Part shown: positions 100 through 7,105 of the stretch, piece after piece
Layout of the letters: every line of letters starts with the position of its first letter
Position numbering within the stretch: position 1 is the stretch's first letter
Assembly: GCA_902791035.1 (NCBI GenBank)
Contig: CADAUA010000012.1
Location: 1-64,000 of the forward strand
Length of the DNA stretch: 64,000 nt
Source of the DNA: an uncultured Coriobacteriaceae bacterium
GTDB lineage: Bacteria > Actinomycetota > Coriobacteriia > Coriobacteriales > Atopobiaceae
Direction of reading: 5' to 3'
The notes under the pieces: generated by a model
Seen by the model: the letters and a program-made list of their open reading frames with translations, nothing else
Databases searched by the model: none
What the model was told of the DNA's origin: nothing
Program-made: the position numbers and the translations under genes

Positions 100-137
100 T
101 GTTGAACGACCCTGCCAAACGGCAGGGTCGTTCAACA
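100..137. repeat. Palindrome family A, copy 1
   Basis: This is a perfect inverted repeat with a 17-bp stem (TGTTGAACGACCCTGCC and its complement) and a four-base loop AAAC. Related copies lie at 3873, 5016, 5670, 6851 and 7070; this one differs in having TTGAACGA instead of TTTGACGA at the stem base, with the matching change in the other arm, so pairing is conserved. There is no T-tract after it, so it is a dispersed palindrome rather than a clear terminator. The sequence from 1 to about 284 holds nothing else I can support as a gene. Confidence 0.85.
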
Positions 138-2266: not shown

Positions 2267-3167
2267 ATGCGCATAGTTACCATCGAACACCCTGCAGAGG
2301 TCCACGTGCGCGATGACCAGCTCATCGTGGAGCAAGACGCTGGCACTGCAAGCGTACCCGTCGAGCAGGTGGAGCTTCTCGTCACCTACGGGCCCTCGAT
2401 CCGCATCTCCACCATGGCTCAGACGATGCTCGCGCAGGCAGGCGTGGTGACCATCCTCTGCGGCCGCAACCACCTGCCGGCTGCAATGGTCATCCCCATG
2501 GAGGCAAACGTCCGCATGGCGCAGGTGACCGCGGCGCAGGCGGCGCTGCCGCAGGACGTGGCTGGCAAGCTCTGGGCAGTAATCATTCGCTGCAAGATAA
2601 AGAAACCAGGCATGTGCTCTTGACGTGCTTGGCATGGCTGGTGGCGATGCCCTGCGAGCCCTCAGCGAGCGCGTTGGGCCGGGCGATAAGGACAACGTGG
2701 AGGGGCAGGCGGCTAGGGACTACTTTCAGTTGCTACATCCCGGCCTCAACCGGCGCTGCGACGACCCCTTCAACAGCGTGCTCAACTACGGGTACGCCAT
2801 CGTGCGCGGCGCGCTTGCGCGGGCGCTGGTAACCACGGGGTTTGTGCCTGCGCTGGGCATTCACCACCACAGCCAGTTCAACGCCTTCAACCTCACGGAC
2901 GACCTCATCGAGCCCTTCCGGCCGTGCGTGGACATGATCGCGCCCGGAATCGTGAGCCTGACCGCCAGGCTGAGCGCCCAGCAGAGGCACGCGCTGAGGG
3001 ACGTCCTCTTCATGCGTGTGCACATGGGTGGCCGCAGGGTAACGGTCTCCCAGGCGGTGGAGGAGGTGGCAGACTCCCTTGTCCGCGCCATGAGGGACAA
3101 GGACCCAGGCAAGCTGCGGCTACCCAAGGTGATAGCACCGGAGTACGACCTTGGCACGAGGGACTGA
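2267..3167 (+). pseudogene. cas1: CRISPR integrase Cas1, type II-like, frameshifted
   Basis: Starting at ATG 2267 (ribosome binding site GAGGGAGA), the first frame encodes a Cas1 N-terminal beta domain and ends in KLWAVIIRCKIK before running into a stop at 2621. The other frame resumes with NQACALDVLGMAGG and carries the helical domain, including NRRCDDPFNSVLNYGYA, the LGIHHH histidine and the DDLIEPFRP glutamate. Deleting one A from the run at 2603-2605 restores KIKNQA, a typical type II Cas1 motif, and a protein of about 300 residues. Cas2 follows five bases after the stop. No cas9 lies upstream: bases 1974-2266 show no recognisable gene. Whether the frameshift is real or a homopolymer error cannot be told from sequence alone. 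Confidence 0.8.
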
Positions 3168-3172
3168 TTGAC

Positions 3173-3478
3173 ATGCGGATACTCGTACTGCTCTCCCCAA
3201 CCAACGCGCGTGGGACAAAGACCTCCTACACCAAGTTCAGAAAGTTGCTGGTGGCGCGTGGGTTCGTGATGCTGCAGGCGGAGGTATACATGAAGGTTGT
3301 TCCCAACCGTGAGGTGGCGGCCACGCAGCTGGACGTGTTGGCGAGAAACGCACCGCCCACAGGCACGGTGCGGGCGCTCTCGATGACCGAGCGGCAGTTT
3401 GGGACCATGAGGTACCTCGCGGGCGGGCCGAACTACCAAGAGCGCGTGGTAGGCGCCAAGAGACAGGTGGAGCTGTAG
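3173..3478 (+). CDS. cas2: CRISPR-associated Cas2, catalytic Asp missing
   Basis: A 101-residue ferredoxin-fold protein with the type II Cas2 body: KFRKLLVARGFVMLQAEVYMK, then PPTGTVRALSMTERQFGTM. Cas2 forms the scaffold dimer of the Cas1-Cas2 spacer integrase. In normal family members strand 1 ends in a conserved aspartate (roughly VFFDLP); here the segment is LVLLSPTN, so the aspartate is lost. The start five bases after cas1 fits a coupled pair. Cas2 nuclease activity is dispensable for integration in studied systems, so loss of this residue need not be fatal, but it fits a decaying locus. Confidence 0.8.
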   Translation: MRILVLLSPTNARGTKTSYTKFRKLLVARGFVMLQAEVYMKVVPNREVAATQLDVLARNAPPTGTVRALSMTERQFGTMRYLAGGPNYQERVVGAKRQVEL

Positions 3479-3513: not shown

Positions 3514-3661
3514 GGTCTGCCAAACGTGAAGGTGGACAAACCCAGCCAGCTCATTTGCACCCACGATGAGGCAAAGAAGTACTGCCACATGCGCTCGTCC
3601 CAGGTCTGCCAAACGTGAAGGTGGACAAACCCAGCCAGCTCATTTGCACCCACGATGAGGC
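3514..3661. repeat. 59-bp direct repeat, two copies 30 bp apart
   Basis: Bases 3514-3572 and 3603-3661 are identical 59-bp copies separated by 30 unique bases. The pair begins 36 bp after cas2, where a type II CRISPR array normally lies, and 30 bp is the usual type II spacer length. However, 59 bp is far longer than the usual 36-bp repeat, so this may be a relic of a deleted array or simply a local duplication. The 3' end of each copy (TTGCACCCACGATGAGGC) resembles sequences at 165-182 and 3750-3763. Confidence 0.75.
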
Positions 3662-3872: not shown

Positions 3873-3908
3873 GTTTGACGACCCTGCCGTTTGGCAGGGT
3901 CGTCAAAC
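3873..3908. repeat. Palindrome family A, copy 2 (left border of low-GC cassette)
   Basis: A perfect 16-bp stem (GTTTGACGACCCTGCC) with loop GTTT. The loop is the reverse complement of that in the copy at 5016-5051, so the two copies form a perfect inverted pair of about 38 bp around the AT-rich segment 3909-5015. Confidence 0.9.
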
Positions 3909-3997
3909 TCAACCAATGGACTTTATATATGGCGGAAAAGGAGAGTAGGTGGTAATATGAAGTTAGCTATATCTAACAAAAAACCAGCGAAACACAA

Positions 3998-4078
3998 ATG
4001 AATCAGAAAATCATGCGACTTCTTTATACAGGAATTGCGGGTGTAGCCCTTACGATGATCGGGGACTGTCTGCTGTGA
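3998..4078 (+). pseudogene. N-terminal fragment of a membrane protein
   Basis: The reading frame MNQKIMRLLYTGIAGVALTMIGDCLL stops at TGA 4076. It looks like the first transmembrane segment of a multi-pass membrane protein family common in Firmicutes, cut off after 26 residues. It is AT-rich like the hydrolase that follows and unlike the rest of the window. I read it as a remnant brought in with the cassette; its fusion point to the hydrolase upstream region is between 4078 and 4174. Confidence 0.45.
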
Positions 4079-4173
4079 GGTGCCGATTCATTCGGAGCAG
4101 TCAATATGTTCGACGGATTTATGATCATCGCATCAAAGATTTCCTATCAGAAGGAAAGGGGAACAAGGAACAG

Positions 4174-4950
4174 ATGAAGTTTTATACGTATGGAGATAAG
4201 TGCAATCCACTGATCGTAATGCTGCCGGGATCTTTCTGCCCGGCGAAAACACTGCGGTATCTTTACAGTAAACTGCAGTCAGATTTCTATGTTTGTGTTC
4301 CTGAATACAACGGACACTACGCGGGCAGCACATTTACATCAAGACAGAATGAAGCCAGAGAGATCGTACAGTATCTGCTTAAAGAAAACCTGACAGAGAT
4401 AAATATGATCTACGGGCAGTCCATGGGCGCGGAAATCGGCATTGAGCTGATGCACCAGCTCTTACAGAAAGGGATTCATGTCGGAAGAGCTTTCTTTGAC
4501 GGAGCACCGTGCATCAGATTTTCAAAACCATATAAGGCGTTTATGAATATGAAGTTCAGAAAGCTGATCCATATGATAAGGGACAAATCCGCAGATGATG
4601 TTCTGCAGTGGAAATCCCTGAATGCTTTCACCAACGGGGATACCGAAAGCCTGCGGCCGCTGATTGAGAGCCTTATTGATGTTGCGCCGTATCTGACGGA
4701 TGAGAGCATCAAAGCGGAAACGGAGTGCTGTTACACCTTTGATTTTCCTTCGTTTGGTGAAGAGGATCAGAAGAAAATGTTCTTCTTCTATTCGAAAGAG
4801 GAAAAGGCATATAAGCTTTGTTATAAAGGACTGGTGCAGGCATATCCCAATGCTGTGTTCAAAGTCGTTTCCGGCTATGGCCACATGACCTATTCCGTAA
4901 GGCATACCGAAGAATATGTGCAGATGCTCCGGGAGATCTTGGAAAGCTGA
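4174..4950 (+). CDS. Alpha/beta hydrolase, low-GC, probably acquired
   Basis: From ATG 4174 (AAGGAA upstream) the 258-residue protein begins MKFYTYGDKCNPLIVMLPGS, the oxyanion-loop start typical of small Firmicutes alpha/beta hydrolases. The nucleophile elbow is GQSMGAE, a catalytic aspartate candidate lies near FFFYSKEEK, and the histidine is in GYGHMTYS near the C-terminus. Substrate is unknown. Codon use is AT-rich (many AAA, ATA, AGA codons), in sharp contrast to all neighbours, and the gene sits between inverted family A palindromes, so transfer from a low-GC donor is likely. The frame is open back to 4075 (GTG), but those residues do not look like family sequence. Confidence 0.75.
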   Translation: MKFYTYGDKCNPLIVMLPGSFCPAKTLRYLYSKLQSDFYVCVPEYNGHYAGSTFTSRQNEAREIVQYLLKENLTEINMIYGQSMGAEIGIELMHQLLQKGIHVGRAFFDGAPCIRFSKPYKAFMNMKFRKLIHMIRDKSADDVLQWKSLNAFTNGDTESLRPLIESLIDVAPYLTDESIKAETECCYTFDFPSFGEEDQKKMFFFYSKEEKAYKLCYKGLVQAYPNAVFKVVSGYGHMTYSVRHTEEYVQMLREILES

Positions 4951-5010
4951 CAATTCAAGCCTGGACGTGCAATCAGAATTTCTGGGGGAATCTGATGAAT
5001 AGCAGGCATC

Positions 5011-5250
5011 ATGAAGTTTGACGACCCTGCCAAACGGCAGGGTCGTCAAACCAAAGACCAAACCAAGCTTCTGAGAAGCCTGGACCTGCCTACCGACTTC
5101 TCGCACATTACCGAGGAGCAATGGGACGCGGTGGAGGAAGTCATAAGCCACGAGATGCTTACCAAGGGCATCGAGAACGACGAGCTGAACGAGTATGGCA
5201 TCCTCTGCGAGAGCGTCATCGACGCCCTGCCGGAAGAGGCCACTGCGTAG
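5011..5250 (+). pseudogene. C-terminal gene remnant abutting palindrome A
   Basis: The 79-residue frame starts inside the palindromic repeat; from about residue 16 it reads LLRSLDLPTDFSHITEEQWD and ends VIDALPEEATA, acidic and helical like a genuine protein C-terminus. Base composition returns to the high GC of the chromosome. There is no ribosome binding site before the ATG at 5011. I interpret it as the tail of a chromosomal gene truncated by insertion of the cassette; the family is not recognised. Confidence 0.4.
5016..5051. repeat. Palindrome family A, copy 3 (right border of low-GC cassette)
   Basis: A perfect 16-bp stem with loop AAAC, the inverted partner of the copy at 3873-3908. It is read through in frame by the short ORF 5011-5250. 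Confidence 0.9.
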
Positions 5251-5512
5251 CAAGTCAGGTTCAAAACGAAAAACATTCAGGGGCCGCCCTCCGGAGGCTG
5301 CCCCGTTACTTGTGTCGCACCATGGCCGCGAGGTGATACGGGGTGGGACGCAAGAGCGTGGTGAGGTGCGGCGGATGCGCCGTGGTCGTGCTGGTGGCCG
5401 GGTGCGGCTTCACCGCGCGGCCGATGCCTATGGCCACGACATGCTGGAGACCTAGCCCTTCTCACCTTGCGGCAACTCCGGGACGCCGATGCCAAACCGC
5501 TTAGCGCGAGTC

Positions 5513-5601
5513 GCGGCTTAGTAGACTCTACTAAGCCGCAGCTCCTCCATTTACCTGCGGTTATTCTCGCGAGAAGGACGTTGCGGACTCTACTAAACCG
5601 C
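5513..5601. repeat. 27-bp perfect palindrome plus half copy
   Basis: Bases 5513-5539 form a perfect palindrome with arms GCGGCTTAGTAGA around a single C. A half copy, GCGGACTCTACTAAACCGC, follows at 5583-5601. The stretch 5251-5845 contains no gene I can support; apart from these repeats and the degenerate palindrome A at 5670 it appears to be non-coding remnant sequence. Confidence 0.7.
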
Positions 5602-5669
5602 GCTTCCGCAGGGCTGGGCCGCGCCTCCGCAGGGACCGCCGCCCAGACGGCCTCGCGTCGGCCTCCAAA

Positions 5670-5704
5670 GCTTGACGACTTTGTTGCTTGCGGGGTCATC
5701 AAAC
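5670..5704. repeat. Palindrome family A, degenerate copy 4
   Basis: GCTTGACGACTTTG and GGGTCATCAAAC flank a TTGCTTGC centre. It aligns over its whole length with the copy at 3873-3908, with several substitutions that weaken the stem. Confidence 0.6.
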
Positions 5705-5845
5705 CTCTACGGGCCGTTCGCCTTAGGCTGACTACATTTCGCAGTCTATTTTCTCCTCCCCCACATACCAAGAAATTCTCCGAGGGTATGCGAACGTCCC
5801 GTATGATAATTAGCTGTATCGATTCCGATCAGACAGGAGGATGTT

Positions 5846-6628
5846 ATGGATCTACAGCTCAAGGACAAGGTCGTACTCGTCACCGGCGGCACCGGCGGCA
5901 TCGGCTCCGCCATCGTCAGGGCCTTCCTGGCCGAGGGCGCCAAGGTCGCCTTCAGCTCCACCCGTCAGGAGAAGATCGACAAGCTGATCCCGACGCTCGA
6001 CGCCGCCGAGGGCCAGGTTGCCGGCTTCGTGTGCGACGCACGCGATGAGGCCCAGGTCAAGAAGCTCGTCGATGATGCCAAGGCCCACTTTGGCACGCTC
6101 GATGTCGTCGTCCCCAACGCCGGCTACGAGAGCACCGCGAGCTCCATTGCTGACAACCAGACCGAGGAGATCCTGAAGACCTACACCCTCAACGTCTTCT
6201 CCCCGATGTGGCTTATGAAGTACGCCTCCCCGACCTTGGTCGAGAAGGGCGAAGGCGCAATCGTAGTTCTGGCCTCCGCGGGCTCCTACACCCCGACGGC
6301 CACCATGCAGAACTACGTCTCCTCCAAGTACGCCGTCGCCGGTGCCGTCAAGTGCGTGGCCCAGGAGCTCATGCCCCAGGGCGTCCACGTCAACCTGATC
6401 TGCCCCGGTCCCGTCGACACCGACATGATGCGCCGCATCGAGCGCGACCAGCTCGGTGACTCCATGTCCCATGAGGAGGCCATGAAGCTCTTCGCCGCCA
6501 CCGCCCTCGACAAGCGCTACGCAAAGCCTGAGGAGGTTGCCGCGGCCGTCGTGATGATGGCCTCGCCTATGACCGCCCACACCTGCGGCATGGAGTTCAA
6601 CCTGGACGCCATCGTCCCCAGCTGCTAG
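5846..6628 (+). CDS. SDR family NAD(P)-dependent oxidoreductase
   Basis: A 260-residue classical short-chain dehydrogenase. The cofactor motif TGGTGGIG is at residues 14-21, NAG near residue 92, and the catalytic Ser (LASAGSY) and YVSSK Tyr/Lys pair around residues 143-161. The CPGPVDTDMM segment is the usual post-catalytic loop. The start is fixed by AGGAGG eight bases upstream. It is monocistronic and ends at a strong terminator. Such enzymes reduce or oxidise hydroxyls of sugars, steroids or acyl chains; the substrate cannot be assigned. A hydroxysteroid dehydrogenase role is possible in a gut organism but is only a guess. Confidence 0.85.
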   Translation: MDLQLKDKVVLVTGGTGGIGSAIVRAFLAEGAKVAFSSTRQEKIDKLIPTLDAAEGQVAGFVCDARDEAQVKKLVDDAKAHFGTLDVVVPNAGYESTASSIADNQTEEILKTYTLNVFSPMWLMKYASPTLVEKGEGAIVVLASAGSYTPTATMQNYVSSKYAVAGAVKCVAQELMPQGVHVNLICPGPVDTDMMRRIERDQLGDSMSHEEAMKLFAATALDKRYAKPEEVAAAVVMMASPMTAHTCGMEFNLDAIVPSC

Positions 6629-6655
6629 CTCTTGGCAGACTAGCGTTGCGTCCGA

Positions 6656-6685
6656 AGCCCGTCGCCTCGCGCGGCGGGCTTTTTT
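6656..6685 (+). terminator. Rho-independent terminator of the SDR gene
   Basis: The stem AGCCCGTCGC / GCGGCGGGCT is followed by six T residues, 28 bases after the stop codon. Confidence 0.9.
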
Positions 6686-6736
6686 CTCCCCCTCTAGTCT
6701 GCGTCTTCTCCCAGGTGCCCGACGATTACCTGAGAT

Positions 6737-6818
6737 AACGGGCACATTCGCGTCCTTCTTGGCCCGTTCTTGTCGTTTTCCCAGGAAAACGCTTGCAAAA
6801 CGACCGAATGTGCCCGTT
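6737..6818. other. Long interrupted inverted repeat
   Basis: AACGGGCACATTCG (6737-6750) is the exact complement of 6805-6818, and GTCGTTTT (6772-6779) pairs with AAAACGAC (6797-6804). An alternative inner hairpin, GTTTTCC-ca-GGAAAAC, occupies 6775-6790. It could fold as a stem of 22 bp with an internal loop. Function unknown; it lies in an 890-bp gene-free stretch (6629-7522). Confidence 0.55.
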
Positions 6819-6850
6819 GTTGCCTGCAGAGGCAATGCGGGGTCCGGAAC

Positions 6851-7105
6851 GTTTGACGACCCTGCCGCTTGGCAGGATTGGCAAGCTAAGCGCCGCCGTT
6901 CGGTGACCCAAGCGTCGTAGGAGGTCGCCCGACGCCGCCGCTTGGCACGGTTGGGTCACTGCATCTTGGCAAAAGCCCAGTTGGCACACGCACGCCACTG
7001 ACCCAACCGACAGGAGGGACGCCCTTCTCGCCCCTAGAGACACGGTTGGGTCAGCCCCGCGGCGCCGATGCTTGACATCCCTGTCGCTTGTCAGGGTTGG
7101 CAAGC
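6851..7105. repeat. Palindrome family A, copies 5 and 6
   Basis: Copy 5 is at 6851-6886 (left arm intact, right arm degenerated to GGCAGGATTGGCAAGC) and copy 6 at 7070-7105 (GCTTGACATCCCTGTC, loop GCTT). Between them an 11-bp inverted repeat CGGTTGGGTCA (6948-6958) / TGACCCAACCG (6999-7009) is also present. No coding sequence is supported here. Confidence 0.6.

Follow-up and report, generated by a model that had tools for sequence, protein, structure and literature searches.

Background

In the usual view, Cas1-Cas2 supplies an RNA-guided effector with spacers measured to a short length. Long DNA can also be joined by a relative of Cas1, as casposases show (see also PMC7786333). Loss of the effector leaves stand-alone adaptation modules, as described in passages of PMC5704561. 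Stand-alone adaptation modules, casposons and integrons are already known. Open-licence literature on Cas1-Cas2 without an effector, on giant spacers and on gene cassettes of Cas1 was searched, and no description of gene-length arrays at palindromic repeats beside an orphan Cas1-Cas2 was found there.

The locus analysed here was compared with each of these systems. With type II-C CRISPR-Cas adaptation it shares a type II Cas1 (TIGR03639), a Cas2, repeats of 36 bp, a duplication-like array near cas1-cas2, phage-derived inserts and one 30-bp spacer. It differs in that the orphan loci and many of their genomes have no cas9, so that the type II effector is missing, and in a near-perfect palindromic repeat, inserts of mostly 200-1450 bp that are sometimes complete genes, and no more than about 6 repeats. 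Stand-alone adaptation modules likewise hold cas1-cas2 without an effector, but nothing in the passages of PMC5704561 describes arrays of gene-length inserts that have a palindromic repeat of their own. As with a casposase, the enzyme here would be a Cas1 relative that joins long DNA to a target and duplicates this target. Unlike in casposons, Cas2 is present, PolB and the terminal inverted repeats of a self-carrying element are absent, and the target repeat builds an array; cas1 is not carried by the inserts, and the cassette of the window has neither cas1 nor a polymerase, the cas1-cas2 genes lying outside the repeats. Integrons resemble the locus in their tandem foreign cassettes, the palindromic sites between these and a recombinase gene nearby. 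The recombinase here would however be Cas1-Cas2 and not a tyrosine integrase, the sites are perfect 36-bp stems, and the cassettes are often truncated genes.

The best reading of the evidence, which is comparative, likens the system to an integron made from CRISPR parts, in which an orphan Cas1-Cas2 would have captured long foreign DNA between duplicated repeats. The cassette probably belongs, as a single unit, to a decayed CRISPR-like array whose inserts have the length of genes, made by an orphan, type II-derived Cas1-Cas2 without Cas9.

Methodology

The window is the whole stretch of 64,000 nucleotides that was analysed, at the start of contig C12 (CADAUA010000012.1) of a genome of 2.69 Mb (99% complete) from the same family as an Olsenella MAG. 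Genome contigs were scanned with the palindrome core, and the family search over 140 genomes used the outer letters only (GTTKRACG-N20-CGTYMAAC). The cas1 genes of the family were collected with the intact Cas1 of RUG025 as query. The Cas1 tree was calculated without two long-branch rows (G013, G015), which a first tree had placed among the orphans. Covariation was analysed on a gapless alignment of twelve distinct repeats. The genomes are probably mostly MAGs, so that local misassembly of single contigs is possible.

Results and Discussion

Palindromic repeats and the low-GC cassette

The features of the window are summarized in Table 1. The preliminary description had proposed a low-GC segment, holding a hydrolase and a membrane-protein fragment, between two 36-bp palindromes with opposite loops, and these elements were all recovered. 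When one outer base is added on each side, the two bordering repeats form a 38-bp perfect inverted repeat whose copies are 1,105 bp apart. The GC content of the insert was set against 62% for the first 12 kb of the contig, and GC along the sequence placed the shift at the palindromes, in accordance with the earlier observation. In 40 Markov shuffles of 64 kb the best match to the 36-mer was 26/36, compared with 36/36 for both bordering copies; the copies at 101 and 6851 also exceed the shuffle maximum. Chance origin of the palindrome copies is excluded. The opposite loop orientation of the two repeats differs from the arrays of G134 and G053 and from most others. Direct reading of the flanks revealed no common bases beyond 3873 and 5051, that is, no target-site duplication outside the terminal repeats.

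The hydrolase reading frame showed weak alpha/beta-hydrolase matches (TIGR03695, E 6e-5; PDB 4rpc, E 4e-4), and no family was matched in the Pfam search. A truncated chromosomal frame had been said to continue beyond the cassette. The frame at 5047-5250 opens at the repeat, and nothing to the left of the cassette corresponds to it. The insert therefore did not split a single chromosomal gene, and this point was not borne out.

Table 1: Features of the window around the cassette
Feature	Position	Strand	Evidence or remark
36-bp palindromic repeat, GTTGAACG...CGTTCAAC variant	101-136		32/36
cas1 of the orphan type II-like clade, pseudogene in two frames (2267-2605, 2601-3164)	2267-3164	+	Pfam PF01867; TIGR03639, 143.7 bits
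cas2, intact, 101 aa	3173-3478	+	77% identity to cas2 of G033
Direct repeat of 59 bp, two identical copies 89 bp apart	3514-3572, 3603-3661	+	each with a worn palindrome half
36-bp palindromic repeat, left cassette border, loop GTTT	3873-3908	+	perfect 16-bp arms, 4-nt loop
Cassette, foreign DNA read as captured, 1,107 bp	3909-5015		44% GC
Membrane-protein start, 27 codons, then stop codon	3998-4078	+	read directly
Alpha/beta-hydrolase-like protein, 258 aa, complete ORF	4174-4950	+	GQSMGA motif, weak profile matches
36-bp palindromic repeat, right cassette border, loop AAAC	5016-5051	+	perfect 16-bp arms, 4-nt loop
Next cassette	5052-5669		the first frame starts within the repeat and runs to 5250, as a gene cut off there; no match in Pfam search
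Degenerate repeat	5670-5704	+	local score 17 against a largest value of 15 in 100 shuffles of 4 kb
Probable further cassette, complete short-chain dehydrogenase gene (5846-6628)	5705-6850		inferred from flanking degenerate repeats
Degenerate repeat	6851-6886	+	31/36 identical
Possible degenerate repeat	7070-7105	+	27/36 against a largest chance value of 26

cas genes and remaining array in the window

A broken cas1 and an intact cas2 sit 0.4 kb upstream of the left palindrome. The preliminary description had considered a foreign gene inserted at, or carried by, a palindromic repeat without any transposase. The idea of a foreign gene between copies of a palindromic repeat is supported, while a likely integrase, cas1 with cas2 at 2267-3478, had been overlooked; the relatives described below show the palindrome to be the repeat unit of a Cas1-Cas2 array, neither the end of a transposon nor a hairpin standing alone. 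The window cas1 is 71-74% identical to the intact cas1 of G033. A second cas1-cas2 pair was located at the end of contig C6 of the same genome (G000), with a frameshifted cas1 and an intact cas2, and dN/dS between the two cas2 copies is 0.11. The proteins belong to the type II Cas1 and Cas2 families (TIGR03639, 143.7-180.2 bits; TIGR01573, 49.7 bits for the C6 orthologue of cas2). Directly after the cas2 stop, the C6 copy has a variant of the palindrome (GTTGAACG...CGTTCAAC) and no hydrolase, which makes it a paralogous site without this cargo. The differences between the window and C6 variants are paired and the stem is preserved.

The 59-bp direct repeats after cas2 are probably remnants of cas2-proximal repeats. 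With the worn copies at 5670, 6851 and perhaps 7070, the region after cas2 reads as an array in which the repeats become more degenerate with distance from the cas genes. On the other side, the repeat at 101 is separated from the cas genes by an intact amidohydrolase-like gene on the minus strand (603-1973). In the whole genome only about seven repeat sites were found, grouped near cas loci and contig ends. A second repeat pair, in the same orientation, surrounds 1,452 bp on contig C4 (L005 630-2153), where a membrane-protein gene is present and GC does not shift. With both cas1 copies broken, the system of this genome is probably dead and the cassette a relic.

Arrays in related genomes

Arrays of such repeats around other cargo, for which the preliminary description had suggested searching, did turn up in relatives. 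The scan with the palindrome core revealed clusters in RUG025 and Olsenella RUG161, both of them rumen actinobacteria. RUG025 has an intact cas1-cas2 directly beside three identical repeats, which enclose inserts of 338 and 277 bp. On another of its contigs the inserts measure 852, 30 and 425 bp; the shortest, of exactly 30 bp, has the normal type II spacer length and lies between two 36-bp repeats. The family search matched 12 of the 140 genomes, against 1 for the reversed control pattern. The 36-bp palindromic repeat pattern, GTTGAACG-N20-CGTTCAAC, extends across Atopobiaceae and to one genome of another family, with cores that differ, each lineage having its own. Six identical repeats with five inserts form the array of G134, and four repeats lie on one contig of G053; repeats were also present in G126, G137 and G067, and arrays in G126 and G033. 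In G262, the genome of the other family, four identical repeats come after cas2-cas1 and enclose inserts of 671, 504 and 1,301 bp. A single-genome accident was rejected in view of the family and class searches.

The length of 26 inserts had a median of 461 bp and a range of 30-1,452 bp, mostly 0.2-1.5 kb; beside repeats of 36 bp these are not the short spacers of similar length that define a CRISPR array. The position of the first repeat relative to cas1 is nearly constant; this repeat is found either 73-160 bp upstream of the gene or immediately behind the stop codon of cas2. The 22-base core also gave matches in Methylomirabilota, Oscillospiraceae and Desulforhopalus (L016, L018, L021), which were rejected because they resemble common terminators or hairpins arisen by chance. 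The scan of IMG/VR for GTTGAACG-N20-CGTTCAAC gave 12 single matches, about the chance level for a collection of that size.

Orphan cas1 clade

The collected cas1 genes separated into two sets. Those of the first set are more than 40% identical to the Cas1 of RUG025, have no cas9 in the flanks examined and have palindromes nearby. Those of the second are at most about 37% identical and adjoin cas9 in all except the broken G023. The truncated cas1 of G052 is 42% identical and yet cas9-linked. In the tree calculated without G013 and G015, the orphan cas1 genes form one clade with 100/99 support. Repeats and orphan cas1 each occur in 12 of the 140 genomes and together in 8 (8/4/4/124 genomes, odds ratio 62, p 7e-8, uncorrected for shared ancestry), while repeats are not tied to cas9-linked cas1 (p 0.07, likewise uncorrected for shared ancestry). 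The examined flanks of the orphan loci contained no cas9 in any case, and genome-wide cas9 was absent from G000 and from 10 of 14 further genomes. Regular short-spacer arrays were seen beside the sampled cas9-linked cas1 genes and at none of the orphan cas1 loci searched.

The catalytic E/H/E residues are retained in the aligned intact Cas1 of G033, G082, G053 and G126, and dN/dS of cas1 and cas2 was 0.06-0.32 wherever dS was measurable, which corresponds to purifying selection. Both results indicate that orphan Cas1-Cas2 is kept by selection. The clade has cas1-cas2 without an effector together with the active residues of Cas1, as expected of a stand-alone adaptation module, although orphan Cas1-Cas2 is broken in several genomes, including both cas1 copies of the window's genome. 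The association also has exceptions. Repeats were present in G041, G127 and G137, where orphan cas1 was not found, G041 having only a cas9-linked cas1. An intact orphan cas1-cas2 of G388 (L154 639-1843) has no matching palindromic repeat nearby; this genome represents a further family, and its cas genes adjoin ilvB/ilvN/serA/leuA-like genes.

Conservation of the hairpin

In the stem, 93% of the cells are paired and 12 of the 16 pairs show compensatory changes. The covariation score was reached in none of 500 shuffles, and sliding the partner abolished the signal. The hairpin itself is conserved, not merely its sequence. Self-correction of palindromes during replication could add to the covariation signal.

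Origin of the inserts

Mobile elements contributed cut-off pieces of phage genes to the inserts. One insert of G134 consists of the 5' portion of a gene for a phage head-maturation protease. It has nine homologues in phages or prophages, at about 70-87% nucleotide identity, and all of them extend beyond the point where the insert meets a repeat. In PHROGs, other inserts matched a truncated minor head protein (phrog_581), the last part of a phrog_33618 protein and the first part of a phrog_918 protein. Foreign inserts end exactly at the repeat on the side tested, and the sequence differs on the two sides of the repeat. The hydrolase fragment of the window fits the pattern, as DNA from a lower-GC organism.

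Two inserts of G262 (L155 1487-1741 and 4583-4838) are 91% identical to each other over 255 bp and two inserts of G053 (L041 3115-3325 and L106 990-1199) 92% over 211 bp. Each pair comes from a single region of related phages, which points to the same phage region having been captured twice in each genome.

A low-GC cassette with a MerR gene in RUG161 (G041) is 99.3% identical in another genus of the family (L086 151-1027; L088 10007-10844 / L078 1-106). In the second genus it abuts a truncated orphan cas1, and the palindrome differs there by compensatory changes. This is a recent transfer between two genera.

Plasmids and viral contigs were searched for a donor of the hydrolase fragment and none was found; searches for viral donors of the metallopeptidase-like insert of G053 and of the minor-head insert of G262 also gave none. 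In the donor searches no insert had both ends mapped to one donor, and comparison of the short terminal motifs of the inserts gave no obvious common sequence.

Proposed mechanism and alternative explanations

The orphan Cas1-Cas2 would take as its target the 36-bp palindrome beside cas1-cas2, and pieces of foreign DNA of 0.2-1.5 kb, from phages, plasmid-like elements or other bacteria, would be joined to both repeat borders. The repeat would be duplicated at each insertion, leaving one repeat common to neighbouring cassettes, and insert length would not be held to 30 bp, unlike in CRISPR adaptation. That Cas1-Cas2 performs the insertion is inferred; the duplication of the repeat is modelled on CRISPR spacer acquisition, and the ends of long DNA may be joined in a casposase-like way.

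The palindrome might instead be an independent mobile, REP- or MITE-like element or a bidirectional terminator that occurs at several places, with the low-GC gene merely between copies. A perfect hairpin with few copies per genome suits this explanation, and the one unrelated, isolated match in Oscillospiraceae (L018) resembles an ordinary terminator. It is nevertheless unlikely, because the few sites of G000 cluster near cas loci and contig ends, the length is fixed at 36 bp across lineages with different cores, the repeat is tied to one cas1 clade, foreign inserts including phage fragments stop exactly at a repeat whose two sides differ in sequence, and a 30-bp spacer exists. An ordinary type II-C array could also have lost Cas9 and then decayed; in that case the long segments would stem from secondary insertions or deletions that happened at random between the old repeats. 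The type II Cas1 (TIGR03639) and the one remaining 30-bp spacer agree with such a history, and passages of PMC5704561 make stand-alone modules left by effector loss a known outcome. This account is quite improbable, since identical repeats within an array go together with spacers of 0.2-1.5 kb, one spacer excepted, this layout is found again in independent lineages whose repeat cores differ, cas1-cas2 is under purifying selection, and phage fragments abut the repeats precisely on the side tested.

Assembly or binning could have produced the cassette if an assembler had joined low-GC DNA to the contig at a palindromic repeat, and several loci do lie close to contig ends while the named organisms are rumen MAGs. 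The same layout in many unrelated assemblies makes this very improbable, as do the MerR cassette, which is 99.3% and not 100% identical in two genera with common flanks and compensatory palindrome changes, and the shortness of a 36-bp repeat relative to normal read lengths. Integron attC sites carry the boxes GTTRRRY/RYYYAAC. The ends GTTGAAC...GTTCAAC of the palindromes are similar to these boxes, and the layout of cassette plus palindrome is that of an integron whose cassettes are moved by an integron integrase. However, none of the 10 array-bearing genomes has an integrase over the TIGR02249 cut-off, only ordinary tyrosine recombinases being found; the window variant GTTTGAC misses the attC box; the near-perfect stems are without the extrahelical bases that attC needs; among the inserts are truncated pieces of phage genes and one spacer of 30 bp; and the constant neighbour is cas1-cas2. 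An integron is accordingly hardly probable at all.

Significance

The capture of long DNA by an orphan Cas1-Cas2, as preferred here, would if demonstrated constitute a system of its own. In contrast to the usual view of spacer acquisition, a conserved, effector-less Cas1-Cas2 clade occurs with a target repeat that surrounds gene-sized phage and bacterial DNA. Such a system would connect CRISPR adaptation, casposons and integrons, would offer a natural model for whether and how the length of DNA is measured when it is integrated, and could be one way in which actinobacteria of the gut and rumen acquire genes. The captured DNA may serve as carried genes, as an effector-less memory, as fragments that interfere with phages, or as nothing. 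A working capture system, in which the orphan Cas1-Cas2 stores gene-length DNA as genes or phage-interfering segments without an RNA-guided effector, is a tentative reading to which somewhat less than even confidence is given.

One further insert is of note for its content. On contig C36 of G033 (L085 9183-9380), a 198-bp insert between two repeats consists mostly of a tRNA-Gln (CTG) gene with short flanks.
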